DNA of 64,000 nucleotides from Halomonas sp. MCCC 1A13316 (GTDB taxonomy: Bacteria > Pseudomonadota > Gammaproteobacteria > Pseudomonadales > Halomonadaceae). Below, piece after piece: positions 1 through 12,265 of the stretch (its first letter is position 1; each line of letters starts with the position of its first letter). The notes beneath the pieces were generated by a model. It did no database searches and had not been told where the DNA came from. It was given only the letters and a program-made list of their open reading frames with translations. Made by a program: the position numbers and the translations under genes. The stretch covers positions 3,658,001 through 3,722,000 of the forward strand of contig NZ_CP053382.1 in assembly GCF_014931605.1 (NCBI RefSeq). The letters run 5' to 3'.

Positions 1-1129
1 CGAGTACCGCGATGCCCTCCTGCAGGGTATAAGTGACCCCCTGGCGTCCGTTGAGCCGGACTCGCTCCTCCAGGGGACGTTGGTCCCAGCCATCCTGCTT
101 GGCACACACCGACGCGGGGCCATATGTCTCGGTCAGTCCGTAGACGTGGGTAATCTCGACACCGAGCTTCTCCATCCGCTCTAGCACGGACGCCGGCGGC
201 GCCGCACCGGCGATCAGCCCCGACACCTTATGATCGATCGTTGCCTGCGCAGCATCGGCGGCATCGGCGATCATCGAGTGGACAATGGGCGCACCGCAGT
301 AGTGACTGACCCGATGCTGCCTGATCAGGTGCAAGATCACCTCCGGGTCGACCCGGCGCAGACAGACGCTGGTCCCGCCGATCGCCGCCAGTGTCCACGG
401 GAAACACCAGCCGTTACAGTGAAACATCGGCAGGGTCCACAAGTAGACCACGCTGGAAGGCAAATTCCAGGACAGCACATTACTGACCGCATTCAGGTAA
501 GCACCCCGATGGTGGGTGACAACCCCCTTGGGATTGCCGGTAGTGCCTGACGTGTACCCCAGCGCAATCGCATCCCACTCGTCGACCGGCAGCCGCCAGT
601 CATCCAGCGCCGGTTGCTCGGCCAGCAACGCCTCGTACTCCAGGTTGCCGATCAAACGCTCTTCACCCTGGCTCGGGTCGGATACGTTGATCACCTTGGG
701 TGCCGGCCCCTCGAGCCGGGCCAAGACCTTTTCGACCACGTCCACGTACTCGGGGTCCACCAGCAGCAGTCGCGAGCGGCTATGCTCGAGGATAAAGGCC
801 ACCGCCTCGGGATCCAGGCGAATGTTGATCGCATTCAACACCGCGCCCACCATGGGAACCCCAAAGTGGGCTTCGTACATGGCCGGGACATTCGGCAACA
901 TGACGGCCACCGTATCGCCCCTTTTGATACCGAAATGTTTCAGCATGGCTGCCAGTCGACAACAGCGGGCATAAGTCTGCTGCCAGCTGTAGCGCGTCTC
1001 GTTGTAGATCAGCGCTGTCCTGTCAGGATAAACGGCAGCAGCCCGTTTGATGAAGCTTAAGGGTGACAGTGGTACATAATTCGCCGCCGTTTTCTCGAGA
1101 GCATCATTGAAATGGCAAAGATCACTCAT
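1..1129 (-). CDS. AMP-dependent acyl-CoA synthetase (DmdB/AlkK-like), C-terminus beyond window
   Basis: The leftward frame starts at the ATG at 1129 (MSDLCHFND) with an AGGGA-type ribosome site, and runs off the left edge, so about 376 residues are visible. It has the ANL-superfamily P-loop YTSGTTGNPKGV and the later motif YGLTETYG. These enzymes adenylate a carboxylic acid and then form its CoA thioester. The visible part (MLPNVPAMYEAHFGVP, LWTLPMFHCNGW) resembles the medium-chain/3-methylmercaptopropionate CoA ligase group, to which DmdB belongs. It is the third gene of a leftward set with the OsmC and crotonase genes (63-base gap). Substrate cannot be fixed from sequence; a DMSP-pathway role is inferred from the demethylase and C1 genes to the right. 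Confidence 0.85.
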   Translation of the reverse strand, partial: MSDLCHFNDALEKTAANYVPLSPLSFIKRAAAVYPDRTALIYNETRYSWQQTYARCCRLAAMLKHFGIKRGDTVAVMLPNVPAMYEAHFGVPMVGAVLNAINIRLDPEAVAFILEHSRSRLLLVDPEYVDVVEKVLARLEGPAPKVINVSDPSQGEERLIGNLEYEALLAEQPALDDWRLPVDEWDAIALGYTSGTTGNPKGVVTHHRGAYLNAVSNVLSWNLPSSVVYLWTLPMFHCNGWCFPWTLAAIGGTSVCLRRVDPEVILHLIRQHRVSHYCGAPIVHSMIADAADAAQATIDHKVSGLIAGAAPPASVLERMEKLGVEITHVYGLTETYGPASVCAKQDGWDQRPLEERVRLNGRQGVTYTLQEGIAVL

Positions 1130-1192: not shown

Positions 1193-1993
1193 CTAGCGGC
1201 CTGGCTGTTCCCAGATAGGTTTACGCTTGGAGAGAAAGGCATCGATCCCCTCGCCTGCGTCAGCGCTCAACATGTTTTCGGCCATCACATCGCCGGCAAA
1301 GTCGTAGGCGTCCTCGAGGGCCATTTGACGCTGGGGGTGGAACATGGACTTTCCGAAACGCACCGCCGCGGGGCTCTTGCTCCGGATCTGTGCCACCTTG
1401 TCGGCCACGGCAGCGTCCAGGTCGGCATCGTCGGTGACGCCACTCAACAGCCCCCACTCCAATGCCGTATCCGCATCGATGAAGTGGCCAGATATCAGCA
1501 TGTCGAACGCCCGCTTGGGGAATATATTGCGCGACAGCGCCACGGCGGGGGTCGAACAGAACAGGCCCACGTTGATGCCCGATACCGCGAAGCTGGCTGA
1601 TTGGGCGGCGATGGCGAGGTCGCAGCTGGCTACTAACTGGCACCCCGCCGCCGTGGCCATACCCTGGACGCTGGCGATGACAGGCACTGGCAGGGCGACG
1701 ATACTCTGCATCACTCGGCTGCAACGACGAAACAACGCCTGGTAATAGGACTGTTCAGGATTGGAACGCATTTCCCTCAGGTCGTGACCGGCGCAAAACC
1801 CCCGCCCCTTGCCACCGATTACCACACAGCGAACGGCAGGATCGACGGCGATCGCATCCAGCTCCCGCTGCAACGCAGTCAGCATCGCCTCGGAAAGGGT
1901 GTTGAACTTATCCGGCCTATTCAACGTGAGATAGACAGCCCCGTCATTATCCTCTCTGAGAAGCACACTTTCAGAAGATTGATTGTTATTCAT
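1193..1993 (-). CDS. Enoyl-CoA hydratase/isomerase family protein, ECHDC3-like
   Basis: A 266-residue crotonase-fold protein. The oxyanion-hole segment GFCAGHDLREM and the second one around MATAAGCQLVASCD are present, and the C-terminus FLSKRKPIW matches the ECHDC3 subgroup. The two glutamates that act in classical enoyl-CoA hydratase, and in DmdD, fall at positions occupied here by Gln (AAGCQL) and Gly (VSGINVG). Ordinary hydration of an enoyl-CoA is therefore doubtful. It lies 63 bases upstream of the acyl-CoA ligase and 34 bases downstream of the OsmC gene, so co-transcription is likely. Family assignment is firm; the reaction is unknown. Confidence 0.85.
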   Translation of the reverse strand: MNNNQSSESVLLREDNDGAVYLTLNRPDKFNTLSEAMLTALQRELDAIAVDPAVRCVVIGGKGRGFCAGHDLREMRSNPEQSYYQALFRRCSRVMQSIVALPVPVIASVQGMATAAGCQLVASCDLAIAAQSASFAVSGINVGLFCSTPAVALSRNIFPKRAFDMLISGHFIDADTALEWGLLSGVTDDADLDAAVADKVAQIRSKSPAAVRFGKSMFHPQRQMALEDAYDFAGDVMAENMLSADAGEGIDAFLSKRKPIWEQPGR

Positions 1994-2027: not shown

Positions 2028-2471
2028 TCATTTGATCGTCACCTCGGCGGTGATAGAGTTACGGATAAAACAATTACGATGGGCATAGGCATGGATTCTG
2101 GCTATTGCATCCTGATTCGGCATGATATCGCCACCGAAGGTAATGCGCGGCGATAGCACAATACGCGTCACCTCCATCCCTTTATTAGCGCTGCTTTCCA
2201 AATGTCCGACGGGGTTGTCGTCATAGGAATCGACTCGATAACCTTGGAAGTCGGCAATTGCCAGAAAAAACAGCATGTGACAGCTGGACACCGCGCTGAC
2301 CAGCATCTGTTCCGGGTCGGCGCAGCTTGAATCCCCTTTGAATTCAACCGACGCGGAAACGTTGATCTGCTGGCCACCATTCAATGTGACTTGGTGCTTG
2401 CGCGAGTAGGTTTCGACCTCGGTTTCATGAGGATTTCGCTGCCAACGGATGGCGGACTGGTGAACTGACAT
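2028..2471 (-). CDS. OsmC/YhfA family peroxiredoxin-like protein
   Basis: A 147-residue cytoplasmic protein with the two-cysteine pattern of OsmC: the peroxidatic Cys in AVSSCHMLFF and the second Cys in AHRNCFIRN. OsmC-family proteins reduce organic hydroperoxides using dithiols such as lipoyl groups. That is notable because a lipoamide-dehydrogenase-like flavoprotein is divergently encoded at 2891. It is the first gene of the leftward operon with the crotonase and the acyl-CoA ligase. The start at 2471 follows an AAGGGA-like ribosome site. A role in detoxifying a reactive intermediate of the neighbouring pathway is inferred only. Confidence 0.85.
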   Translation of the reverse strand: MSVHQSAIRWQRNPHETEVETYSRKHQVTLNGGQQINVSASVEFKGDSSCADPEQMLVSAVSSCHMLFFLAIADFQGYRVDSYDDNPVGHLESSANKGMEVTRIVLSPRITFGGDIMPNQDAIARIHAYAHRNCFIRNSITAEVTIK

Positions 2472-2890
2472 GGATAGGCTTCCCTTTCGGCGAATCCCTG
2501 AATCCTATGTGATGCGGCAAACGCCTGGAAAGCGACGATTTCTAAGCAGTAGGATTAGCTTGCCTAACGTGAGGACTTGCAATTTGGTAAAATTGCAAAA
2601 GGGATGTTCTACCAACCTCCACGAGGGTCGACACCGGACTGCCAGGCCGCCCATGGGTTAGAAAAGATAACCCAAATGCTTAGAATCTATCGCTTTACCG
2701 CTTGTAAGGCTCCGGATAGCCTGCCTTGGGCTGTCGACATTCAACCTACTTCACTTGAAAAAACACAAGCTTTAAATATCCCCTCGCCAGCCTTTGTGAA
2801 TTTAGCGAGGGTTTGAAGCCAAGCGCGACACCTCTCAACCACTAAGTTACTCGTTTCAACAATTAAACACCCTATACGATGAGGCGCCGC
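2472..2890. other. Divergent promoter region between osmC-type and lpd-type genes
   Basis: This 419-base A+T-rich stretch separates two divergent transcription units and holds no convincing gene. Its outstanding feature is a perfect 9-4-9 palindrome at 2577-2598, described separately. Both flanking operons probably start here. No -35/-10 pair could be assigned with confidence. Confidence 0.5.
2577..2598. promoter_or_regulatory. Palindromic operator candidate (9-4-9)
   Basis: The sequence reads TTGCAATTT-GGTA-AAATTGCAA, an exact inverted repeat of 9 bases with a 4-base spacer. It sits 106 bases upstream of the OsmC start and 293 bases upstream of the flavoprotein start. The size and symmetry suit a dimeric helix-turn-helix regulator. 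The Lrp/AsnC protein at 4570 is the nearest candidate, by proximity only. Confidence 0.5.
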
Positions 2891-4321
2891 ATGAGCGAAT
2901 CTTCCATGAAGACCCTGAATGTTGAATACGCGATCATCGGCGCCGGCACTGCCGGGCTGGGCGCCTACTCGAAGATAAGCCGTAAGACCGATAGCCTGGT
3001 GATGATCCAGGACGGTCCCTACGGCACCACCTGTGCTCGAGTCGGCTGCATGCCCAGCAAGCTGATGATCACCGCAGCCGATTACGCTCACCACTTGAAC
3101 ACCAGTGAGTTTTTCGGGGTGACAGCGACGGGCCGAGTGGATGGCCGCAAGGTCTTCGAACGGTTGCGCCGAGAGCGAGATAATCGATTTGTTGCCAACA
3201 ATCTCCGCTATGTAGACAAGATTCCGGCCCACCATAAGCTTGAGGGGCGCGCCCGGTTCATCGGACCAGGCCGCCTCAGAGTGGGTGAAGCGGTCGAGGT
3301 CAATGCGAAGAAGTTCATCCTCGCCTGCGGCTCCAGGCCTGCTGTCAGCGAGGAGTTCGAGCCCGTAATGGCCCGCGTCCTCACCAGCGATACTGTCTTT
3401 GAGCTGGAGGATCTGCCCCGCTCGATAGCCGTGATAGGTACAGGAGTGATTGCGCTGGAACTGGGGCAGGCATTCCATCGACTGGGAGTCGAAACGACAA
3501 TTTACGGCCGCTCCGGAAGGATCAACGCCCTCACCCATCCGGCCATGCAGCAGCAAGCGCTCGATCTCTTCTGCACCGAACTGGAGATCTATCCCGTCGG
3601 CCAGGTGGTGAGCACACGGGAGGATGCCGAAGGCGCCTGGATCGAGTTTGAGCAATCAAATGGCCAGCGGGTCACCAAGGTGTTCGACAGAGTACTGGTA
3701 GCCACGGGGAGGATACCCAATGTAGACCGATTGGGTATGCAGCATACGGGCGTGGAAGTCACTGAAGCAGGCGCAGTGACATTCGACCCGCAGACGATGC
3801 GCTGCTCGAACCTTCCTATTTTCATAGCCGGCGATGTGACCGACCACCTGCCGTTGTGGCACGAAGCCTTCGATGAAGGACGTATCGCCGCCGCGAATGC
3901 ATTGAACTACCCGAACCCGATGCCTGCACAGCGTAGGCCGCCGTTGATGGTGGCCTTTACAGATCCTCAGATTGCTATAATCGGTCAGAGCTTTCGGCAA
4001 CTGGAAGGCCAGGAGATTGTCATTGGCGACCTGCCGTTTACTAGTCCTCGCCATGTGGTTTGGAACAAGGTCCAAGGGCGCATTCAAGTCTACCTGGACG
4101 CGAAAACCGGCGAGATACTGGGGGCCGAGCTGCTCGGGTACAAGGCTGAACACCTGGCACACCTGCTTGCCCTAGCCATCACACACGGTATGACGGCAGA
4201 GCAGGTCCTGTCGATGCCGGTTTACCATCCCAGCGCCGAAGAGCTGTTACGAGACGTCTTGATCAATGCTCGGGACAAGTGTAGGCGTTACGCAGCCGAA
4301 AACATGAGTCATCAAGAGTGA
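2891..4321 (+). CDS. Dihydrolipoyl dehydrogenase-like FAD pyridine nucleotide-disulfide oxidoreductase
   Basis: A 476-residue class I disulfide oxidoreductase. It has the N-terminal FAD motif IIGAGTAGLGAY, the redox CARVGC pair (Cys-X4-Cys), an NAD(P) Rossmann motif VIGTGVIALELG, the second FAD contact FIAGDV and a C-terminal YHPSAEE with the His-Glu dyad of lipoamide dehydrogenases. The start at 2891 is preferred over the ATG at 2879 because GAGG lies 6 bases upstream. No E1/E2 or glycine-cleavage P and H genes are present, so its disulfide substrate is unknown. It stands divergent to the OsmC operon, and OsmC proteins can be reduced by lipoyl systems. Its last codons overlap the BCCT remnant that follows. 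Confidence 0.85.
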   Translation: MSESSMKTLNVEYAIIGAGTAGLGAYSKISRKTDSLVMIQDGPYGTTCARVGCMPSKLMITAADYAHHLNTSEFFGVTATGRVDGRKVFERLRRERDNRFVANNLRYVDKIPAHHKLEGRARFIGPGRLRVGEAVEVNAKKFILACGSRPAVSEEFEPVMARVLTSDTVFELEDLPRSIAVIGTGVIALELGQAFHRLGVETTIYGRSGRINALTHPAMQQQALDLFCTELEIYPVGQVVSTREDAEGAWIEFEQSNGQRVTKVFDRVLVATGRIPNVDRLGMQHTGVEVTEAGAVTFDPQTMRCSNLPIFIAGDVTDHLPLWHEAFDEGRIAAANALNYPNPMPAQRRPPLMVAFTDPQIAIIGQSFRQLEGQEIVIGDLPFTSPRHVVWNKVQGRIQVYLDAKTGEILGAELLGYKAEHLAHLLALAITHGMTAEQVLSMPVYHPSAEELLRDVLINARDKCRRYAAENMSHQE

Positions 4322-4569: not shown

Positions 4570-5061
4570 ATGAGGAAAATTACCATTGATGCTGCAGATT
4601 TGCGTATTCTTTGTGCAGTACAGCAGCACGGGCAGCTCAGCAAGATCAAACTTTCCGAACTGGTCAACCTTTCGCCGACGCCATGCTGGATTCGATTCAA
4701 TCGATTAAAGGAAGCCGGCCTGATACGCGGATATCATGCAGACATCTCGCTGGATAAAATCGTAGATGTCTCGAAAGTCATTGTAACTATTTCCTTGAAA
4801 GGCCATCAAAAATCGGCTTTCGAACGCTTTGAGTCTTATATCGGTCAAGTAGATGAAATAATCGAATGCATAGCGACGGGCGGTGGCATGGACTACGTCT
4901 TGAAAGTAGTCGCACCCAGCCTTTCCGCTTTTCAGTGCGTAATGGAAGAACTTCTTTCAGCGGAACTGGGAATTGAACGCTACATGACTTACATCGCAAC
5001 CAGAGACATAAAATCGACTCAGCCCAAACTTTCCAGTTTAATGGCTGAATCAGGTGATTGA
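4570..5061 (+). CDS. Lrp/AsnC family transcriptional regulator
   Basis: A 163-residue protein with an N-terminal winged helix-turn-helix (IDAADLRILCAVQQHG followed by KLSELVNLSPTPC and RLKEAGLIRGY), then an RAM/ActD-type ligand domain (residues about 65-150, with IECIATGGGMDYVLKV). Such regulators bind small amino-acid-like effectors as octamers. It lies between the flavoprotein and the demethylase genes and may sense the substrate or product of this locus. The gene is A+T-rich: a 60-base line within it (4801-4860) has 24 G or C. Effector and targets cannot be read from sequence. Confidence 0.88.
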   Translation: MRKITIDAADLRILCAVQQHGQLSKIKLSELVNLSPTPCWIRFNRLKEAGLIRGYHADISLDKIVDVSKVIVTISLKGHQKSAFERFESYIGQVDEIIECIATGGGMDYVLKVVAPSLSAFQCVMEELLSAELGIERYMTYIATRDIKSTQPKLSSLMAESGD

Positions 5062-5371
5062 ACCGGAAGCGAAAGATATCGGCGTAAAGCTCAGATATCT
5101 CTCCGGTAGTCTCTCCATGGGGACAAACAACTGGCATGCCACCGCTACCGAGACCCGAGCGGTCACCGAGATGCTTTGATCGACGAAGAGGCGCTGTTCG
5201 GGCAAGCCGAACCAAATGGTCTTCGCTGCGAAAGAAAATGGTCCGTTCAGTTTTAAATCACAGAAATTTTGGACCGTTTCACAGTGCCATGTGGGTCTAT
5301 AGTGATGTTGTCAAGCCAGCCAGCACGGACACTCTCTTGTATTTTACATCATGAATCGAAAGGAGATTACA
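5062..5371 (+). other. Leader/promoter region of the demethylase gene, with a direct repeat
   Basis: A 310-base region without a supported gene. It contains a near-repeat, TGGTCCGTTCA at 5239 and TGGACCGTTTCA at 5270, spaced about 31 bases (three helical turns). Such spacing would suit cooperative binding of an Lrp-type regulator on one face of DNA. No promoter boxes were assigned. Confidence 0.35.
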
Positions 5372-6541
5372 ATGACAAACGTTACTTCAATCAGCATAGA
5401 AAAAGAAGATGACTTTGGGTTTGGAACTCAGATTCGAAAGTCCCCTTACTTTGACGCAACAGTACGCTGGGGAGCAAAAGGGTTTTCAGTATACAACCAT
5501 ATGTATATTCCGCGTGATTTCGGGGATCCGGAGCAGAATTTCTGGAATCTCGTGAATGAGGCCATCCTTTGCGATGTAGCCGGCGAACGACAGGTCGAAA
5601 TCACAGGTCCGGATGCAGCGAAATTCGTGCAGAGCCTTACCCCGCGTGACTTGTCGGAAATGGCTGTTGGACAGTGCAAGTATATTCTCATCACCAATGC
5701 GGACGGTGGCATCCTTAACGACCCGATCCTGCTACGGCTGGCAGAGAATCACTTCTGGATCTCTCTGGCTGACAGCGACATCCTATTGTGGGCGCAAGGC
5801 GTTGCGGTTCATGCCGGGCTAGATGTCAGCATCCGCGAACCCGATGTTTCGCCTCTGCAATTACAAGGCCCGAACTCGGGCGAGGTGATGAAGAAACTCT
5901 TTGGCGAGAGCATCATGGACCTGCGCTACTACTGGTTGCGCGAGATCGAGCTTGATGGCATCCCACTGATTGTCTCGCGCACCGGCTGGTCGAGCGAACT
6001 GGGCTACGAACTTTACCTGCGTGACGGCACGCGAGGGGACGAACTCTGGGAAAAGATCATGGCGGCAGGTGCGCCCTTTGGGCTGAAGCCTGGTCATACC
6101 TCCACGATTCGCCGCATCGAAGGTGGGATGCTCTCCTATCACGCTGACGCGGACAGCAACACCAATCCTTACGAACTCGGGATGGACCGCCTGGTGAAAC
6201 CGGATATGGAGGCGGATTTTATCGGCAAGGCCGCATTGCAACGCATCCGTGAAAATGGCGTGAGTCGTAAGCAGGTCGGGCTGCGGGTAGACATGGCACC
6301 CCTCAAGAAACCCAACACTAGGTTCTGGCCGCTTAGCAAAGATGGCGAAACCGTCGGAAAGGTGACCTCTGCGGTCTACTCCCCACGCCTCGAGCAGAAT
6401 ATTGCCTTGGCCATGGTTACCGCTGAACATGCCACGCTCGGCACCGAACTGCAAATTCCAACGGCATCCGGACCCGTGCAGGCTGTTGTTGTCGAAAAGC
6501 CATTCTTCGACCCTAAAAAGAAAATCGCCATATCGGCTTGA
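5372..6541 (+). CDS. DmdA-like tetrahydrofolate-dependent demethylase (GcvT/aminomethyltransferase family)
   Basis: A 389-residue GcvT-fold protein, close in length to DMSP demethylase (about 370) and with the same opening architecture (RKSPYFDATV, YNHMYIPRDF, RQVEITGPDAAKFVQ, GGILNDPILL, WISLADSD). These enzymes move a methyl group from a sulfonium or ammonium compound to tetrahydrofolate. The GcvT C-terminal barrel follows (VGLRVDM to KPFFDP). The start at 5372 is chosen because AAGGAG lies 6 bases upstream; the ATG at 5351 has no such site. The MTHFR accessory protein, PurU and FolD follow, supporting THF chemistry. DmdA itself, a betaine demethylase or an O-demethylase of LigM type remain possible. 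Confidence 0.75.
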   Translation: MTNVTSISIEKEDDFGFGTQIRKSPYFDATVRWGAKGFSVYNHMYIPRDFGDPEQNFWNLVNEAILCDVAGERQVEITGPDAAKFVQSLTPRDLSEMAVGQCKYILITNADGGILNDPILLRLAENHFWISLADSDILLWAQGVAVHAGLDVSIREPDVSPLQLQGPNSGEVMKKLFGESIMDLRYYWLREIELDGIPLIVSRTGWSSELGYELYLRDGTRGDELWEKIMAAGAPFGLKPGHTSTIRRIEGGMLSYHADADSNTNPYELGMDRLVKPDMEADFIGKAALQRIRENGVSRKQVGLRVDMAPLKKPNTRFWPLSKDGETVGKVTSAVYSPRLEQNIALAMVTAEHATLGTELQIPTASGPVQAVVVEKPFFDPKKKIAISA

Positions 6542-6743
6542 ATAACAGGCCTAGTGGTTGGCTTACAAAGCAATTGCATTCGTGAAGCGCCATAGAGACA
6601 TAATTACCCACCTCTTGTACTGGGAAGTATTCTCTGGCAAGGCGTGAAGTTCCTTGTTGATACTGAAGAAGCAAGTTGGCGTTTCACGGATCCTGGAATC
6701 CATTTTCAGCTTTACAGTGGCGCTGCCGTGAAAGGAGAGACAT

Positions 6744-7220
6744 ATGTATTCCATTCGTCTTTGGGCCGTGCGGCACGCGAGATTCCTTGAGCACGTATAT
6801 AGATTATTCGAACCGGTAGTCGTCAATTTGCAGCCGCTTTGGAACTCGGTAGGCTACCAGCGCGCGGAAAAGACCGTGGGCAAACTGGAAAAGATCAGCA
6901 AAGAATTGCTTTTCGACTGCAAGATGTGTGGTCAGTGCGTCCTCATCTCTACCGGGATGTCATGCCCCATGAACTGTCCTAAATCATTGCGCAACGGCCC
7001 TTGTGGTGGGGTACGCACCAACGGCAATTGTGAGGTATATCCGGAGATGCGGTGTGTCTGGGTCGAAGCTTGGGATGGAAGCCAGAAGATGAAAGACGGC
7101 GACAAGATCCAGGTAGTGCAATTGCCCGTTGATCACCGTCAGAAGGGAACCTCGTCCTGGCTGCGTGTCGCTCGTAACGCGTCTAACTCGACACAAGGCC
7201 ATAAGAACCCTTCAAGATGA
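6744..7220 (+). CDS. Methylenetetrahydrofolate reductase C-terminal (zinc-ribbon) domain protein
   Basis: A 158-residue protein whose centre carries a dense cysteine cluster (FDCKMCGQCVL, GMSCPMNCPKSL, NGPCGG, GNCEV, MRCVW), as in the MTHFR_C family (PF12225). In many bacteria this protein is encoded next to or fused with MetF and probably carries iron-sulfur or zinc centres. Here no MetF catalytic gene is adjacent: the demethylase precedes and PurU follows. A strong GGAG site precedes the start. It probably helps oxidise methyl-THF together with a MetF encoded elsewhere, or acts directly with the demethylase; neither is shown. Confidence 0.8.
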   Translation: MYSIRLWAVRHARFLEHVYRLFEPVVVNLQPLWNSVGYQRAEKTVGKLEKISKELLFDCKMCGQCVLISTGMSCPMNCPKSLRNGPCGGVRTNGNCEVYPEMRCVWVEAWDGSQKMKDGDKIQVVQLPVDHRQKGTSSWLRVARNASNSTQGHKNPSR

Positions 7221-7362
7221 ACCTTTATGATGCGGAGTTCCTTCACAATAGTGAATAACTCGCCATGCAATCCATTTTACGCTTGAACAAAACAACACCA
7301 AAGACATCAAGTTACCGTCAGCTAAATAAACCAAAAAATACCCATACACAAAGGTTTCTGCC

Positions 7363-8238
7363 ATGAGTGAAATTTCGGATTACTCCAACCAGTACATCCT
7401 CACTGTCAGTTGCAAAACCGCACCTGGCATCGTTGCCGGTATCGCATCTTATATTACAGATCGTGGCGGCTATATCGCGGAGCTGTCTCAATTTGATGAC
7501 AAAATCAGTGGACAGTTCTTTTTGCGGACGTTGTTCAATATCACCCCGGACTCCAGCTACACCTTCGACGACATCTGCGCTGGATTCAATGACTTGGCAA
7601 ACAAGCATGGCATAGAGTGGGCGATGCATGAGGTCATCCATCCGACTAAGGTCTTGATCATGGTATCCAAGTTCGACCACTGCCTGGTCGATCTTCTTTA
7701 CCGTTATCGAAAAGGCGAATTTAATATCGATATCACTGCGGTCGTATCCAACCATCTGGATCTTCAACCACTAGTTGAGCGAGAAGGCTTTCACTTTGTT
7801 CACCTACCAGTGACAGCAGAAACCAAACTGGAAAAGGAAGCCGAGCTGCTCAACATCATCAAAGAGACCGGAACCGACCTGGTGGTACTGGCACGTTACA
7901 TGCAAGTCTTGTCTGACAGTCTATGTAAGCAGCTGCACGGCCGAGCCATTAATATCCATCACTCCTTTCTGCCCGGCTTCAAAGGGGCCAAGCCTTATCA
8001 TCAGGCATTTGAGCGTGGCGTTAAGCTGATCGGTGCCACTGCACATTACGTGACCGCGGATCTGGATGAAGGCCCGATTATCGAACAGGCCGTGCTGCCA
8101 GTTAATCATGCTTACTACCCGGATGAACTTGTTGCCCTTGGCCGCGACACCGAAACGAAAGCACTGGCAAGCGCCGTTAAGTTGCATACTGAGAACCGTG
8201 TATTCCTTTCAGGTAACAAAACCATTATTTTTAAATAG
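7363..8238 (+). CDS. purU: Formyltetrahydrofolate deformylase
   Basis: A 291-residue cytoplasmic enzyme that hydrolyses 10-formyl-THF to formate and THF. An N-terminal ACT domain (residues about 10-85) is followed by a formyltransferase-fold catalytic domain with [20 protein letters not shown] and the catalytic Asp in [11 protein letters not shown]. Length matches PurU. It lies 14 bases upstream of folD, so the two are co-transcribed. In THF-linked methylotrophic and demethylating pathways PurU completes oxidation of the C1 unit to formate and recycles the folate, which fits the upstream demethylase. Confidence 0.95.
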
Positions 8239-8252
8239 AAAAAGAGGGCATG

Positions 8253-9113
8253 ATGACTCAATTAATAGACGGAAAAAAGCTCTCGAACCAGATCTTGCAA
8301 GAAGTTGCCTCTGAAGTCGAGCTGCTCAAGGGCGAACATGACATAGTGCCGACGCTGGCTGTCGTGCTGGTGGGGGAGGATCCCGCCAGCCAAGTGTACG
8401 TGAGAAACAAGGTGAAGCGGGCGAAAGAGGCGGGAATGGGTTCTATTGAGCACCGCCTTGATGCCGAAACCTCCCAGAACACACTGAATGAGCTAATTGA
8501 TCATCTAAACAAAGATCCCGAGGTTCACGGCATTCTAGTGCAACTGCCGCTTCCATCACATCTCGATGAGGATGTGGTGATAGCCTCCATCCATCCAGCT
8601 AAAGATGTTGATGGCTTTCACCCACTAAACGTCGGGGCACTTGCTTCTGGGCGGCCATTGCTCGTGCCGTGCACGCCACAAGGTTGCATGATCATGTTGC
8701 ACCAGATCCATCCGGACCTTAGTGGCAAGAATGTCGTAGTGGTGGGGCGCTCCAATATCGTAGGAAAGCCAATGGCTGCACTGCTCCTACAGGCAAACTG
8801 CACTGTCACTATTGCCCATTCACGAACCAAGGACATCGAATCACTGTGCCGCGATGCCGATATTGTGGTCGCGGCGGTCGGCCGCGCGGAGTTCATCAAC
8901 GCTGACTGGATCAAGCCAGGTGCAACGATAATCGATGTCGGCATTAACGCCATTGATGTCGACGGCAAGAGAAAGCTCGTGGGTGATGTGCATTTCGAGT
9001 CGGTTGCCCGCGTCGCTGGTGCAATTACGCCCGTACCCGGTGGCGTGGGTCCAATGACGATCGCCTGCCTGCTCTTGAATACGACCCGTGCAGCAAGGTG
9101 TCAGTTGGCCTGA
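8253..9113 (+). CDS. folD: Bifunctional methylene-THF dehydrogenase / methenyl-THF cyclohydrolase
   Basis: A 286-residue enzyme converting 5,10-methylene-THF to 10-formyl-THF using NADP. It has the catalytic Lys region [11 protein letters not shown], the signature [20 protein letters not shown], the NADP loop [11 protein letters not shown] and [11 protein letters not shown]. Start 8253 is preferred over the ATG at 8250 because of spacing from GAGG. It follows purU by 14 bases. A second, housekeeping folD may exist elsewhere; this copy is probably dedicated to the local C1 pathway. Confidence 0.95.
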
Positions 9114-9191
9114 TCGTTAAACCTCACCAACACGCCAAGAATGTCCAGTATCGCTCACAGGCGACGCGACAATAACAATAGAGGACCTCGC

Positions 9192-10766
9192 ATGAACCAC
9201 AACGACGAAATCACCATGGCCCCGGGCCATGATAACACCCAGGTGCTGGGCCTGGACTTCCACAACCCCGTCTTTCCCCTCTCTGCCTTGGCGATCATCG
9301 CCTTCATCCTCTATGCCCTGATCTATCCCGACGCTGCCAACACTCAGTTGACGGCCGCCCGGGGTTGGTCCATCGAGCATTTCGACTGGCTGTTCATGAT
9401 CGTCGGCAATATCTTCGTGCTGCTCTGCCTGGTGCTGATCGTGCTGCCCCTGGGGCGCATCCGGCTGGGCGGTGAGAACGCCCGGCCGGAGCATTCGCGG
9501 CTCTCCTGGTTCAGTATGTTGTTTGCCGCCGGCATGGGCATTGGCCTGATGTTCTGGAGCGTGGCCGAACCGGTTGCTTATTACACTGACTGGTACGGTA
9601 CGCCACTGAACGCCGCCGCCGGAACCCCGGAAGGGGCTAGTGCCGCCATCGGTGCCACCATGTTCCACTGGGGACTGCATCCCTGGGCCATCTACGGCGT
9701 GGTGGGCCTCTCCCTGGCCTTCTTCGCCTACAACCGTGGGCTACCGCTGAGCCTGCGCTCGGCCTTCACCCCGCTGCTGGGTAACCGGGTACGTGGCTGG
9801 CCCGGCCACCTGATCGACATCACTGCGGTACTGGCGACCATCTTCGGCCTGGCCACCTCGCTGGGCTTCGGGGCCTCCCAGGCCGCCGGCGGCCTCAACT
9901 ACCTGTTCGACGTGCCCAACACCCTCGGCACCCAGATCGCCATCATCGTCGGTGTCACAGCGGTGGCGCTGTTCTCGGTGTGGCGCGGCATCGACGGGGG
10001 CGTGAAGCTGTTCTCCAATATCAACATGGTGCTCGCACTGCTGCTGCTGCTGTTCGTGGTGTTGACCGGCTCAACCCTGCTGTTCCTCAACGGCCTGTGG
10101 GACACCACCCTGGCCTACGCCAGCCATATCGTGCCGCTCTCCAGCTGGATCGGCCGCGATGACACCACCTGGTACCACGGCTGGACGGTGTTCTACTGGG
10201 CCTGGTGGATCTCCTGGTCGCCCTTCGTCGGCATGTTCATCGCGCGGGTCTCGCGCGGGCGCACGGTCCGCGAGTTCCTGACCGCTGTGCTGCTGGTGCC
10301 GACCCTGGTCACCATCGTCTGGATGAGCGCCTTCGGCGGCACCGCCCTAGCCCAGTCCGCGGCCGGCGTCGGCGAGCTGGCCAATGGCATCAGCGACGTC
10401 TCCCTGGCGATGTTCCACATGCTCGAGCAGCTGCCGCTGACGACCCTGACCTCCAGCCTGGCGATCCTGCTGGTGCTGATCTTCTTCGTCACCTCCTCGG
10501 ATTCCGGCTCGCTGGTGATCGACAGCATCACGGCTGGCGGCAAGACCGATGCCCCGCGCGGCCAAAGGGTCTTCTGGGCCACCTTGGAAGGAGTGATCGC
10601 CGGAATACTGCTATACGGCGGCGGCGACGCCGCACTCGGCGCCCTTCAGGCCGGCGCCGTGGCCACTGGCCTGCCTTTCTCCCTGGTCTTGCTGGTGATG
10701 TGCGTGGGCCTGGTAAAGAGCCTGCGCCAGGAACATCGCGATCTGGTGCTTGCGGGCGCGACCTGA
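9192..10766 (+). CDS. BCCT family betaine/choline/DMSP-type transporter
   Basis: A 524-residue inner-membrane secondary transporter with about 12 helices and the family hallmarks GMGIGLMFWSVAEP and FYWAWWISWSPFVG followed by RVSRGRTVREF. It has no long cytoplasmic C-terminal tail of the kind used for osmosensing in BetP, so it is more likely a catabolic importer. The start at 9192 follows GAGGA. It lies 78 bases after folD and probably feeds the demethylase, in the way DddT-type BCCTs accompany DMSP genes. From here rightward base composition becomes clearly G+C-rich. A hairpin terminator follows at 10789. Confidence 0.9.
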   Translation: MNHNDEITMAPGHDNTQVLGLDFHNPVFPLSALAIIAFILYALIYPDAANTQLTAARGWSIEHFDWLFMIVGNIFVLLCLVLIVLPLGRIRLGGENARPEHSRLSWFSMLFAAGMGIGLMFWSVAEPVAYYTDWYGTPLNAAAGTPEGASAAIGATMFHWGLHPWAIYGVVGLSLAFFAYNRGLPLSLRSAFTPLLGNRVRGWPGHLIDITAVLATIFGLATSLGFGASQAAGGLNYLFDVPNTLGTQIAIIVGVTAVALFSVWRGIDGGVKLFSNINMVLALLLLLFVVLTGSTLLFLNGLWDTTLAYASHIVPLSSWIGRDDTTWYHGWTVFYWAWWISWSPFVGMFIARVSRGRTVREFLTAVLLVPTLVTIVWMSAFGGTALAQSAAGVGELANGISDVSLAMFHMLEQLPLTTLTSSLAILLVLIFFVTSSDSGSLVIDSITAGGKTDAPRGQRVFWATLEGVIAGILLYGGGDAALGALQAGAVATGLPFSLVLLVMCVGLVKSLRQEHRDLVLAGAT

Positions 10767-10985: not shown

Positions 10986-11084
10986 ATGATCCAGAGCTTC
11001 AAGATAGGCATGTTGGGTATTTTGGAAGACGACATGCCTCAAGGTCAGCGAAGGCACGCCGCAATTCGGAGCGAGGCTCTATGA
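10986..11084 (+). pseudogene. Possible HigB/RelE-type toxin N-terminal remnant (32 codons)
   Basis: A 32-residue frame (MIQSFKIGMLG, LEDDMPQG, HAAIRSEAL) preceded by GAAGG. The start MIQSFK with a later EDD and HAA resembles the N-terminus of HigB-type plasmid-maintenance toxins (normally about 92 residues). No antitoxin gene follows, and the frame ends inside the start of the MFS gene. The match is short, so the call is tentative. Confidence 0.35.
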
Positions 11085-12265
11085 AGCGCCTTACTCCACT
11101 CGGCATGGCGACCCTCGGCAGTGGGGTAATTGCCATCACCTATGGCCTGGCCCGCTTCGTATTCGGGCTGTTCCTGCCTTCGATGCGCGAGGAGCTGACG
11201 ATTTCCTCCACCATGGCGGGTGTGATCGGCGCCCTGCCCTTCCTTAGCTTCGTTTTTGCGATTCTTGCGGCCCCTTGGGTGACTCGGAGCCTCGGGGTTC
11301 GGCACGCCGGAGCCGCGGCGGCTGGCCTGGCCGGGGTCGGGCTGATGACGATCGCCCTGGCACCTTCATCGCTACTGCTGGCCGCTGGCGTGCTGGTCTG
11401 CGGCATCAGTACCGGCCTCTCCTCACCGGCGATGGCCGAGGCTGTGTCCCGCGTCGTTCCGCCCGGGCTGCGCGGACGGGTCAATGCCACCATCAATGCA
11501 GGTACGAGCGTTGGGATCGCGCTCGCCATGCCCGCGGTGCTTATTTGGGCGCAAGCCTGGCGAAGTGCATATACCGGCTTCGCTGCGCTGGCGGCACTGG
11601 CTGCCTTGACGGCTTACTTCTACCTTCCCCGGGGCAAGCGCTCTACCTCTTCATCACGGCCCCGTTCAGCAGCCCTTCCTCGCAGTCGCAAGCAGTGGTT
11701 GAGAATCATCCGGCTAAGCGGCTTGGCCGCCGGGATGGGGTGCGTTAGCGCAGCCTATTGGGTGTTTGCCCCCGATGCGGTAATCACCGCCGGAGGGTTG
11801 GCGTCGAGCAAGACCGCTTGGATGTGGCTGGCAGTCGGCCTCGGTGGGCTAGTGGGTGGCAGCGCTGGTGATCTCATCTCGCGCTTCGGATCGCTCATCA
11901 GCCATATGACAGGCATCACGGTGATGGCCGCCAGCCTAGCGCTGCTGGCCCTGCATCCCAGCAACTTCGTCCTCGCCATGTCATCGGCGGCTCTGTTCGG
12001 CGCCGGGTACATGATCCTTACCGGGTTCCACCTGGTCAGGAGCGTTGAAATCATGGCCGACGCGCCCGCCTTCGCCCCGGTGCTTCCACTGCTGGCCACC
12101 TCGGTCGGCCAGGTCGCCGGCTCACCACTGGCAGGCTGGCTCGTCGGTACCGAAGGCCATGCCGCCACCTTCATGTTCTTCGCCACCCTGGGGCTCGCCG
12201 TCGCCGGGCTAGGGACCTGGCTGCTGAAGGAGAGAGCCGCTGTCGATGAGCGCACCCCCGGCTAG
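11081..12265 (+). CDS. MFS transporter, YbfB/YjiJ-like
   Basis: A 394-residue inner-membrane protein with 12 predicted helices in two halves joined by a basic loop near residue 190 (PRGKRSTSSSRPRS). The opening LGSGVIAITYGLARFVFGLFLP and the GLRGRVNATINAGTSVG segment fit the YbfB-like branch of MFS carriers. Substrate unknown. A GAGG-containing site precedes the ATG. It is convergent with the DUF2945 gene, whose stop abuts its own. Confidence 0.85.
   Translation: MKRLTPLGMATLGSGVIAITYGLARFVFGLFLPSMREELTISSTMAGVIGALPFLSFVFAILAAPWVTRSLGVRHAGAAAAGLAGVGLMTIALAPSSLLLAAGVLVCGISTGLSSPAMAEAVSRVVPPGLRGRVNATINAGTSVGIALAMPAVLIWAQAWRSAYTGFAALAALAALTAYFYLPRGKRSTSSSRPRSAALPRSRKQWLRIIRLSGLAAGMGCVSAAYWVFAPDAVITAGGLASSKTAWMWLAVGLGGLVGGSAGDLISRFGSLISHMTGITVMAASLALLALHPSNFVLAMSSAALFGAGYMILTGFHLVRSVEIMADAPAFAPVLPLLATSVGQVAGSPLAGWLVGTEGHAATFMFFATLGLAVAGLGTWLLKERAAVDERTPG

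Follow-up and report, generated by a model that had tools for sequence, protein, structure and literature searches.

The window analysed here, a 64,000-nucleotide stretch of the complete 4.49 Mb genome of Halomonas sp. MCCC 1A13316 (contig NZ_CP053382.1; C1:3658001-3722000), carries a gene cluster centred on a putative tetrahydrofolate (THF)-dependent demethylase that resembles DmdA. The list of open reading frames and the family scans bear out the gene order given by an earlier sequence-only reading of this DNA, with five genes on the plus strand: the demethylase, of the GcvT fold (5351..6541; 372.5 bits against the DmdA model NF009133, under its cut-off of 410); a MetV-like zinc-ribbon protein of family PF12225, the C-terminal type of methylenetetrahydrofolate reductase (MTHFR), also DUF5981 (6744..7220; 92.8 bits, cut-off 23); the formyl-THF deformylase PurU (7363..8238; NF004684 381.8 bits, cut-off 223; TIGR00655 311.1 bits, cut-off 285.95); FolD (8250..9113; NF010785 454.9 bits, cut-off 396); and a BCCT-family transporter (9141..10766; PF02028 610.8 bits). 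The intergenic gaps are 202, 142, 11 and 27 bp, in that order. The start at 5372 first assigned to the demethylase is a later methionine in a frame that begins at 5351. Two further plus-strand genes precede it, encoding a dihydrolipoyl-dehydrogenase-like (lipoamide-dehydrogenase-like) flavoprotein (2879..4321; NF004939 553 bits, cut-off 435) and an Lrp/AsnC-family regulator (4570..5061; PF01037 and PF13412).

A second run, on the minus strand, reads OsmC, crotonase, acyl-CoA synthetase, PF12225 and MTHFR, of which the window contains only OsmC, crotonase and a portion of the synthetase gene. These encode an OsmC-like protein of the thiol peroxidase family (2028..2471; PF02566 53.1 bits, cut-off 27.5), a PRK08139-family crotonase-fold protein lacking both catalytic glutamates (1193..1993; NF006008 408.6 bits, cut-off 313) and the 5' two thirds of a PRK08162-family acyl-CoA synthetase (1..1129; NF006020 894 bits, cut-off 677), whose gene extends 512 bases past the left edge. 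Outside the window, on the same strand, lie a second PF12225 zinc-ribbon gene (C1:3656930-3657412; 93.3 bits) and a second, MetF-like MTHFR gene (C1:3655887-3656933; PF02219 109.1 bits over 30-324). FolD occupies two PF02882 places in the genome, and two formate dehydrogenase alpha subunits score above cut-off. MFS transporter genes stand on both flanks of the cluster (window 11081-12265 and L003:8395-9735).

The sequence-only reading had concluded that the cassette has no MetF. A genome-wide search with PF02219 found two MTHFR genes, the classical metF at C1:351826 (292 bits) and the divergent copy just described, which comes with its own zinc-ribbon and ends 1,067 bp to the left of window base 1. 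The start of this left-hand MTHFR gene overlaps the stop of its zinc-ribbon gene by 4 bases. When aligned with the genome's own MetF and seven relatives, the left-hand MTHFR retains the three residues that we take to be catalytic in classical MetF, namely Glu in SEI(x)PP, Asp in LTGD and Gln in TQY; the MTHFR of Ruegeria marina locus L061 has Asn in place of the TQY Gln. The two zinc-ribbons of the genome are 60% identical to one another, and the seven cysteines that are invariant across the 16 aligned zinc-ribbon rows would be compatible with an Fe-S/flavin heterodimer of the MetV/MetF type, MetV itself being, we assume, a PF12225 protein.

No MTHFR catalytic gene lies directly beside the window's own zinc-ribbon (6744..7220). 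A search of the 142-bp gap between it and purU and of the sequence on either side gave no MTHFR remnant (the best BLAST match, E 0.077, is on the opposite strand), and the idea that this zinc-ribbon is a leftover beside a decayed MTHFR was therefore rejected. In Bisbaumannia pacifica (L055) and Halomonas almeriensis (L129) an MTHFR gene occupies exactly that gap, giving the order demethylase, zinc-ribbon, MTHFR, PurU, FolD. The gap lacks MTHFR in L052, L053, L056 and L057, as it does in the window. L053 has an MTHFR gene and a second zinc-ribbon gene behind the BCCT gene, adjoining formate dehydrogenase genes (families taken from the L054 homologues), and L054 likewise has formate dehydrogenase genes beside the cassette. 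MetF seems absent because the window ends where it does and because MTHFR has been relocated or lost in some halomonads. Given the likeness of the zinc-ribbon and MTHFR pair to the MetV/MetF reductase of acetogens, there is a strong case that conversion of methyl-THF to formate is encoded locally and in full. The proposal of a THF-dependent demethylase coupled to methyl oxidation stands, supported by the synteny conserved in relatives, by the second FolD and by a Lichenihabitans plasmid (L220 7615-14969) where a 58%-identical demethylase is followed by purU-folD with MTHFR divergently adjacent; the claim that MetF is missing does not.

An equivalent pair of zinc-ribbon and MTHFR genes occurs in a corrinoid demethylation operon (MTTB, B12-binding protein, RACo; L050 6125-13712), which marks the pair as a probable transferable module for methyl-THF oxidation. 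Arrangements similar to that operon were seen, by reading, in L049 and L051.

We then placed the demethylase itself. In a tree of 59 of the 95 collected rows, for which the program gave a long-branch warning concerning the outer rows, a branch supported at 100/100 sets off 27 rows of the demethylase clade, and all 13 DmdA rows cluster elsewhere with six others (100/99), making 19 rows in total. Six GCV_T places exist in the window's genome; the one at 2339624 clusters with Bacillus subtilis GcvT (95/76) and the window's protein does not, so that it is not a housekeeping GcvT. Its clade is fully supported in the tree and distinct from DmdA, though related to it. The clade and DmdA have an NDP motif in common where GcvT has DD, with Asn replacing the first Asp (N123 in the window protein, N107 in the solved DmdA structure 3tfh). 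Between 57 clade rows and the 19 DmdA rows there are near-fixed differences, for instance 3tfh Lys199-Gln200-Gly201, which is Ser-Glu-Leu in the clade, and Trp58, which is Cys. The AlphaFold model (pLDDT 89.3) is closest among solved structures to 3tfh (TM 0.95 by target length), and the closest named relative is from Halomonas cerina (93%, in a comparison that may leave out the records closest to the window's genome). LigM-type O-demethylation was considered and set aside, the LigM and syringate demethylase models scoring far under cut-off. Taken together, the window protein is probably a THF-dependent demethylase.

Whole-genome checks covered 36 genomes, the one that holds the window and 35 others represented among the 78 demethylase loci, each chosen for carrying a clade member; eight are halomonad-type (the window's own, six named halomonads and one Aquisalimonas). 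Every clade member in the 36 scores below the DmdA cut-off, the best at 387.6 bits. A separate DmdA above 410 bits coexists in 18 of the 36, although in none of the eight halomonad-type genomes. The family is widespread, marine and partly plasmid-borne, and none of the titles or abstracts listed by our searches of open-licence PMC papers describes the cassette.

The demethylase recurs with a characteristic set of neighbours. Around the 78 loci, tblastn matches (at least 40% query coverage, weak matches counted, some loci ending at contig edges) gave an Lrp regulator in 61, crotonase in 50, OsmC in 48 and acyl-CoA synthetase in 42; PurU (10), SBP56 (10), FolD (9), the zinc-ribbon (8) and MTHFR (4) were rarer. 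In a stricter set of 57 loci with at least 4 kb on either side and tighter identity limits, the same four partners were found in 44, 36, 35 and 28 loci, respectively. Roseobacter loci with the full set carry Lrp, demethylase, OsmC, crotonase and synthetase on one strand; halomonads with the full set divide these genes between two divergent runs. On plasmid pP30_b of Phaeobacter inhibens (L219 7259-13987) a pair of related tyrosine recombinase genes, oppositely oriented and 68% identical, encloses exactly these five annotated genes, in the manner of a mobile cassette. Related recombinases occur in L058, L081, L086, L115 and L204. One genome, of Ruegeria marina (L061, L118), has four demethylase copies that score identically; two of these share 4,627 identical bases, extending as far as the DNA examined does. 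The copies may reflect either duplication or an assembly effect.

A clue to the substrate comes from SBP56, the methanethiol oxidase family (PMC5739008). The 36 genomes hold 23 SBP56 genes in 20 of them, and in eight (G195, G207, G216, G217, G223, G224, G227 and G228) SBP56 and demethylase genes are less than 10 kb apart, at 0.2-9.2 kb, the distance in G217 being measured from a 64%-identical member. The remaining 12 SBP56-bearing genomes have none in that range. About 0.16 such linkages would be expected under random gene placement, the genomes not being independent owing to shared ancestry. Because of this linkage we favour a methylated-sulfur substrate, for which the evidence is moderate, and rank a methylated-sulfur osmolyte first and an N-methylated zwitterion second, as the less favoured candidate. 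Flavoproteins near the cassette in L052 and L129 resemble sulfide:quinone reductase by eye; Pfam assigns them only Pyr_redox_2.

Our preferred interpretation, at a probability of roughly 0.55, is that the locus encodes a route for import, THF-dependent demethylation and methyl oxidation of a methylated zwitterionic osmolyte, most likely a methylated-sulfur one such as dimethylsulfoniopropionate (DMSP) or a close analogue. In this scheme, in which we infer the direction of flux as well as the enzyme roles, the BCCT protein would import the osmolyte and the DmdA-like enzyme would transfer one methyl group to THF. The resulting methyl-THF would be taken to formate by a MetV/MetF-type reductase, formed by PF12225 and the left-hand MTHFR and working in the oxidative direction, together with FolD and PurU, and a formate dehydrogenase encoded elsewhere in the genome would complete the oxidation to carbon dioxide. 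The acyl-CoA synthetase would probably activate the demethylated carboxylate, on which the unusual crotonase would then act, and a role in thiol or redox chemistry would fall to OsmC and the lipoamide-dehydrogenase-like protein.

Several observations weigh against this interpretation. The demethylase departs from DmdA, the synthetase from DmdB and the crotonase from DmdD in a defining feature. The synthetase scores 305.8 bits against the DmdB model NF005426, below its cut-off of 822. DmdD catalyses through Glu121 and Glu141, and is unable to free methanethiol from methylmercaptopropionate (MMPA)-CoA (PMC3660561). The crotonase has Gln and Gly at the two Glu positions in 57 of 60 aligned rows, the window's included (GCQLVASCD and SGINVG where the Glu-bearing motifs are expected); among the 60, the genes of the window and of Halomonas gemina are each counted two times, and one gene comes from L207, where it lies beside a DmdA over cut-off. 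Both glutamates are kept in three rows, from L200 and from second crotonases in L058 and L060 located 6-8 kb from the demethylase. A dmdC query, a single PF12806 protein from the window's genome, matched at none of the 78 loci. Among solved chains, DddT (183.6 bits) is a more distant match to the window's BCCT protein than a trimethylamine transporter (456.8), a BCCT transporter (362.4), a choline transporter (355.3) or the betaine transporter BetP (325.9), and only six of the 78 loci have a BCCT match. SBP56 is absent from the window's genome and present in only two of the eight halomonad-type genomes, linked to the cassette in one. Finally, a PF12225 gene occurs in only two of the 28 genomes outside the halomonad type, and hence the one-carbon module is an add-on of the halomonad version.

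Locus L200 (8971-14200; G211, Gemmobacter aestuarii) holds a different DmdA relative (341 bits), in the order demethylase, acyl-CoA synthetase, dmdC-like gene, Glu-bearing crotonase. Two other ideas were dropped. A recurrent transporter gave no clue to the substrate, since besides the few BCCT genes the sole recurrent transporter cluster (16 loci) is a mix of ABC ATPase kinds. DddD, a two-domain protein of about 830 aa, was considered as the genome's DMSP enzyme, but the five CoA-transferase III places are all too short (longest frame 455 aa), other DMSP lyases not having been searched for.

With the dmdC query empty in 78 loci and the crotonase missing its two catalytic glutamates, the cluster, judged by its sequences, differs from the established Dmd route. 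Of the substrates that the sequence-only reading proposed for methylated-osmolyte catabolism, DMSP broken down by that route does not fit, and glycine betaine is conceivable, ranking below a methylated-sulfur osmolyte.

The demethylase might instead act on a nitrogen compound such as glycine betaine, dimethylglycine or another N-methylated zwitterion, the SBP56 linkage being incidental. The affinities of the BCCT transporter agree with this, although sequence similarity alone is said to be insufficient to tell BCCT substrates apart (PMC13270143). So do the surroundings of the Lichenihabitans relative, with aminotransferase and amino-acid ABC transporter genes, and apparent ectoine genes, named by sequence reading rather than by family search, beside the cassette in L068, L083 (Nioella) and L088 (Primorskyibacter). 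However, an acyl-CoA synthetase and a crotonase recur as partners, for which we know of no use in the breakdown of betaine or dimethylglycine, and linkage to SBP56 far exceeds random expectation. We regard a nitrogen substrate as a serious but unlikely alternative.

It is similarly doubtful that the enzyme is simply a divergent DMSP demethylase, converting DMSP to MMPA and relying on a dmdC from elsewhere in the genome. DmdA is the closest family and fold, SAR92 proteins only 38-40% identical to Ruegeria DmdA remain functional (PMC10746254), PF12806 dehydrogenase genes are present somewhere in all 36 genomes, and the synthetase family recurs in L200 beside the other DmdA relative and a dmdC-like gene. 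Against this, half of the genomes already carry a DmdA over cut-off, the clade lies outside the 19 DmdA-grouping rows with its near-fixed Ser-Glu-Leu, and the crotonase is without both DmdD glutamates.

More speculatively, the unit of Lrp, demethylase, OsmC, Glu-less crotonase and synthetase may be an undescribed mobile pathway in which, with no part for DmdC, a methylated-sulfur compound yields methyl-THF, a thiol and a CoA ester. In one version, direct elimination of the thiol from the CoA ester would be the work of the crotonase. In the other, the demethylase would be the long-sought MMPA demethylase (MMPA to 3-mercaptopropionate), elimination then giving sulfide and acryloyl-CoA.

We consider it very improbable that the window's zinc-ribbon dispenses with MetF and pairs with some other protein, such as the flavoprotein at 2879 that the sequence-only reading had suggested: zinc-ribbons with no MTHFR behind them (the window, L052, L053, L056 and L057) and the folD and lpdA genes adjoining metVF in Clostridium ljungdahlii, a real precedent (PMC8760232), speak for it, but an MTHFR lies about 8 kb off in the same cluster and directly after the zinc-ribbon in L055 and L129, Ruegeria marina L061 pairs zinc-ribbon with MTHFR and shows no such flavoprotein match in the DNA examined, and the substitution is not needed. 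The flavoprotein matched in eight of the 78 loci, two of these at 24% identity, and among the synteny-compared loci it reaches 62-87% identity only in L052, L054, L055, L056, L057, L129 and L046.

If the preferred interpretation of a sulfur-directed demethylation route is true, many marine and halophilic bacteria would have a second folate-dependent demethylation route beside DmdA, and surveys that count dmdA would miss or miscount its genes because they score just below the DmdA cut-off. Estimates of who makes methanethiol and other thiols from algal osmolytes would shift, and the long-standing question of a second S-demethylase, which PMC3160333 describes as unidentified, would become directly testable. 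The halomonad version would furthermore provide a compact natural set (demethylase, MetV/MetF, FolD and PurU) for oxidizing a methyl group to formate.

Compared with the DMSP pathway of Roseobacters, SAR11 and SAR92 (DmdA-DmdB-DmdC-DmdD/AcuH), the cassette shares the DmdA-type fold and the NDP motif, is likewise partnered by an acyl-CoA synthetase and a crotonase and, in some genomes, is linked to the methanethiol oxidase family. It differs in a sub-cut-off demethylase in its own clade, a synthetase family other than that of DmdB, a crotonase without the Glu pair, no dmdC match, and the recurrent Lrp and OsmC genes. The cmu chloromethane pathway of Methylobacterium extorquens CM4 (CmuAB, MetF2, FolD, PurU) likewise has dedicated one-carbon oxidation genes, its MetF2, FolD and PurU taking demethylation-derived methyl-THF to formate (PMC3621897), but corrinoid enzymes move the methyl group from chloromethane there, whereas the cassette would use a GcvT-fold protein. 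As in the MetV/MetF (type II) reductase of acetogens, the MTHFR gene adjoins a gene for a Cys-rich accessory subunit (PMC8760232); unlike it, the cassette pair is presumed to be oxidative, and two MetV-like copies are spread over two gene runs. Pelagibacter SAR11_1265, a putative aminomethyltransferase next to metF, may be a further parallel (PMC3160333): it too is a DmdA relative adjacent to an MTHFR gene, but the description consulted mentions no CoA genes beside it, and in the cassette such genes are recurrent partners.

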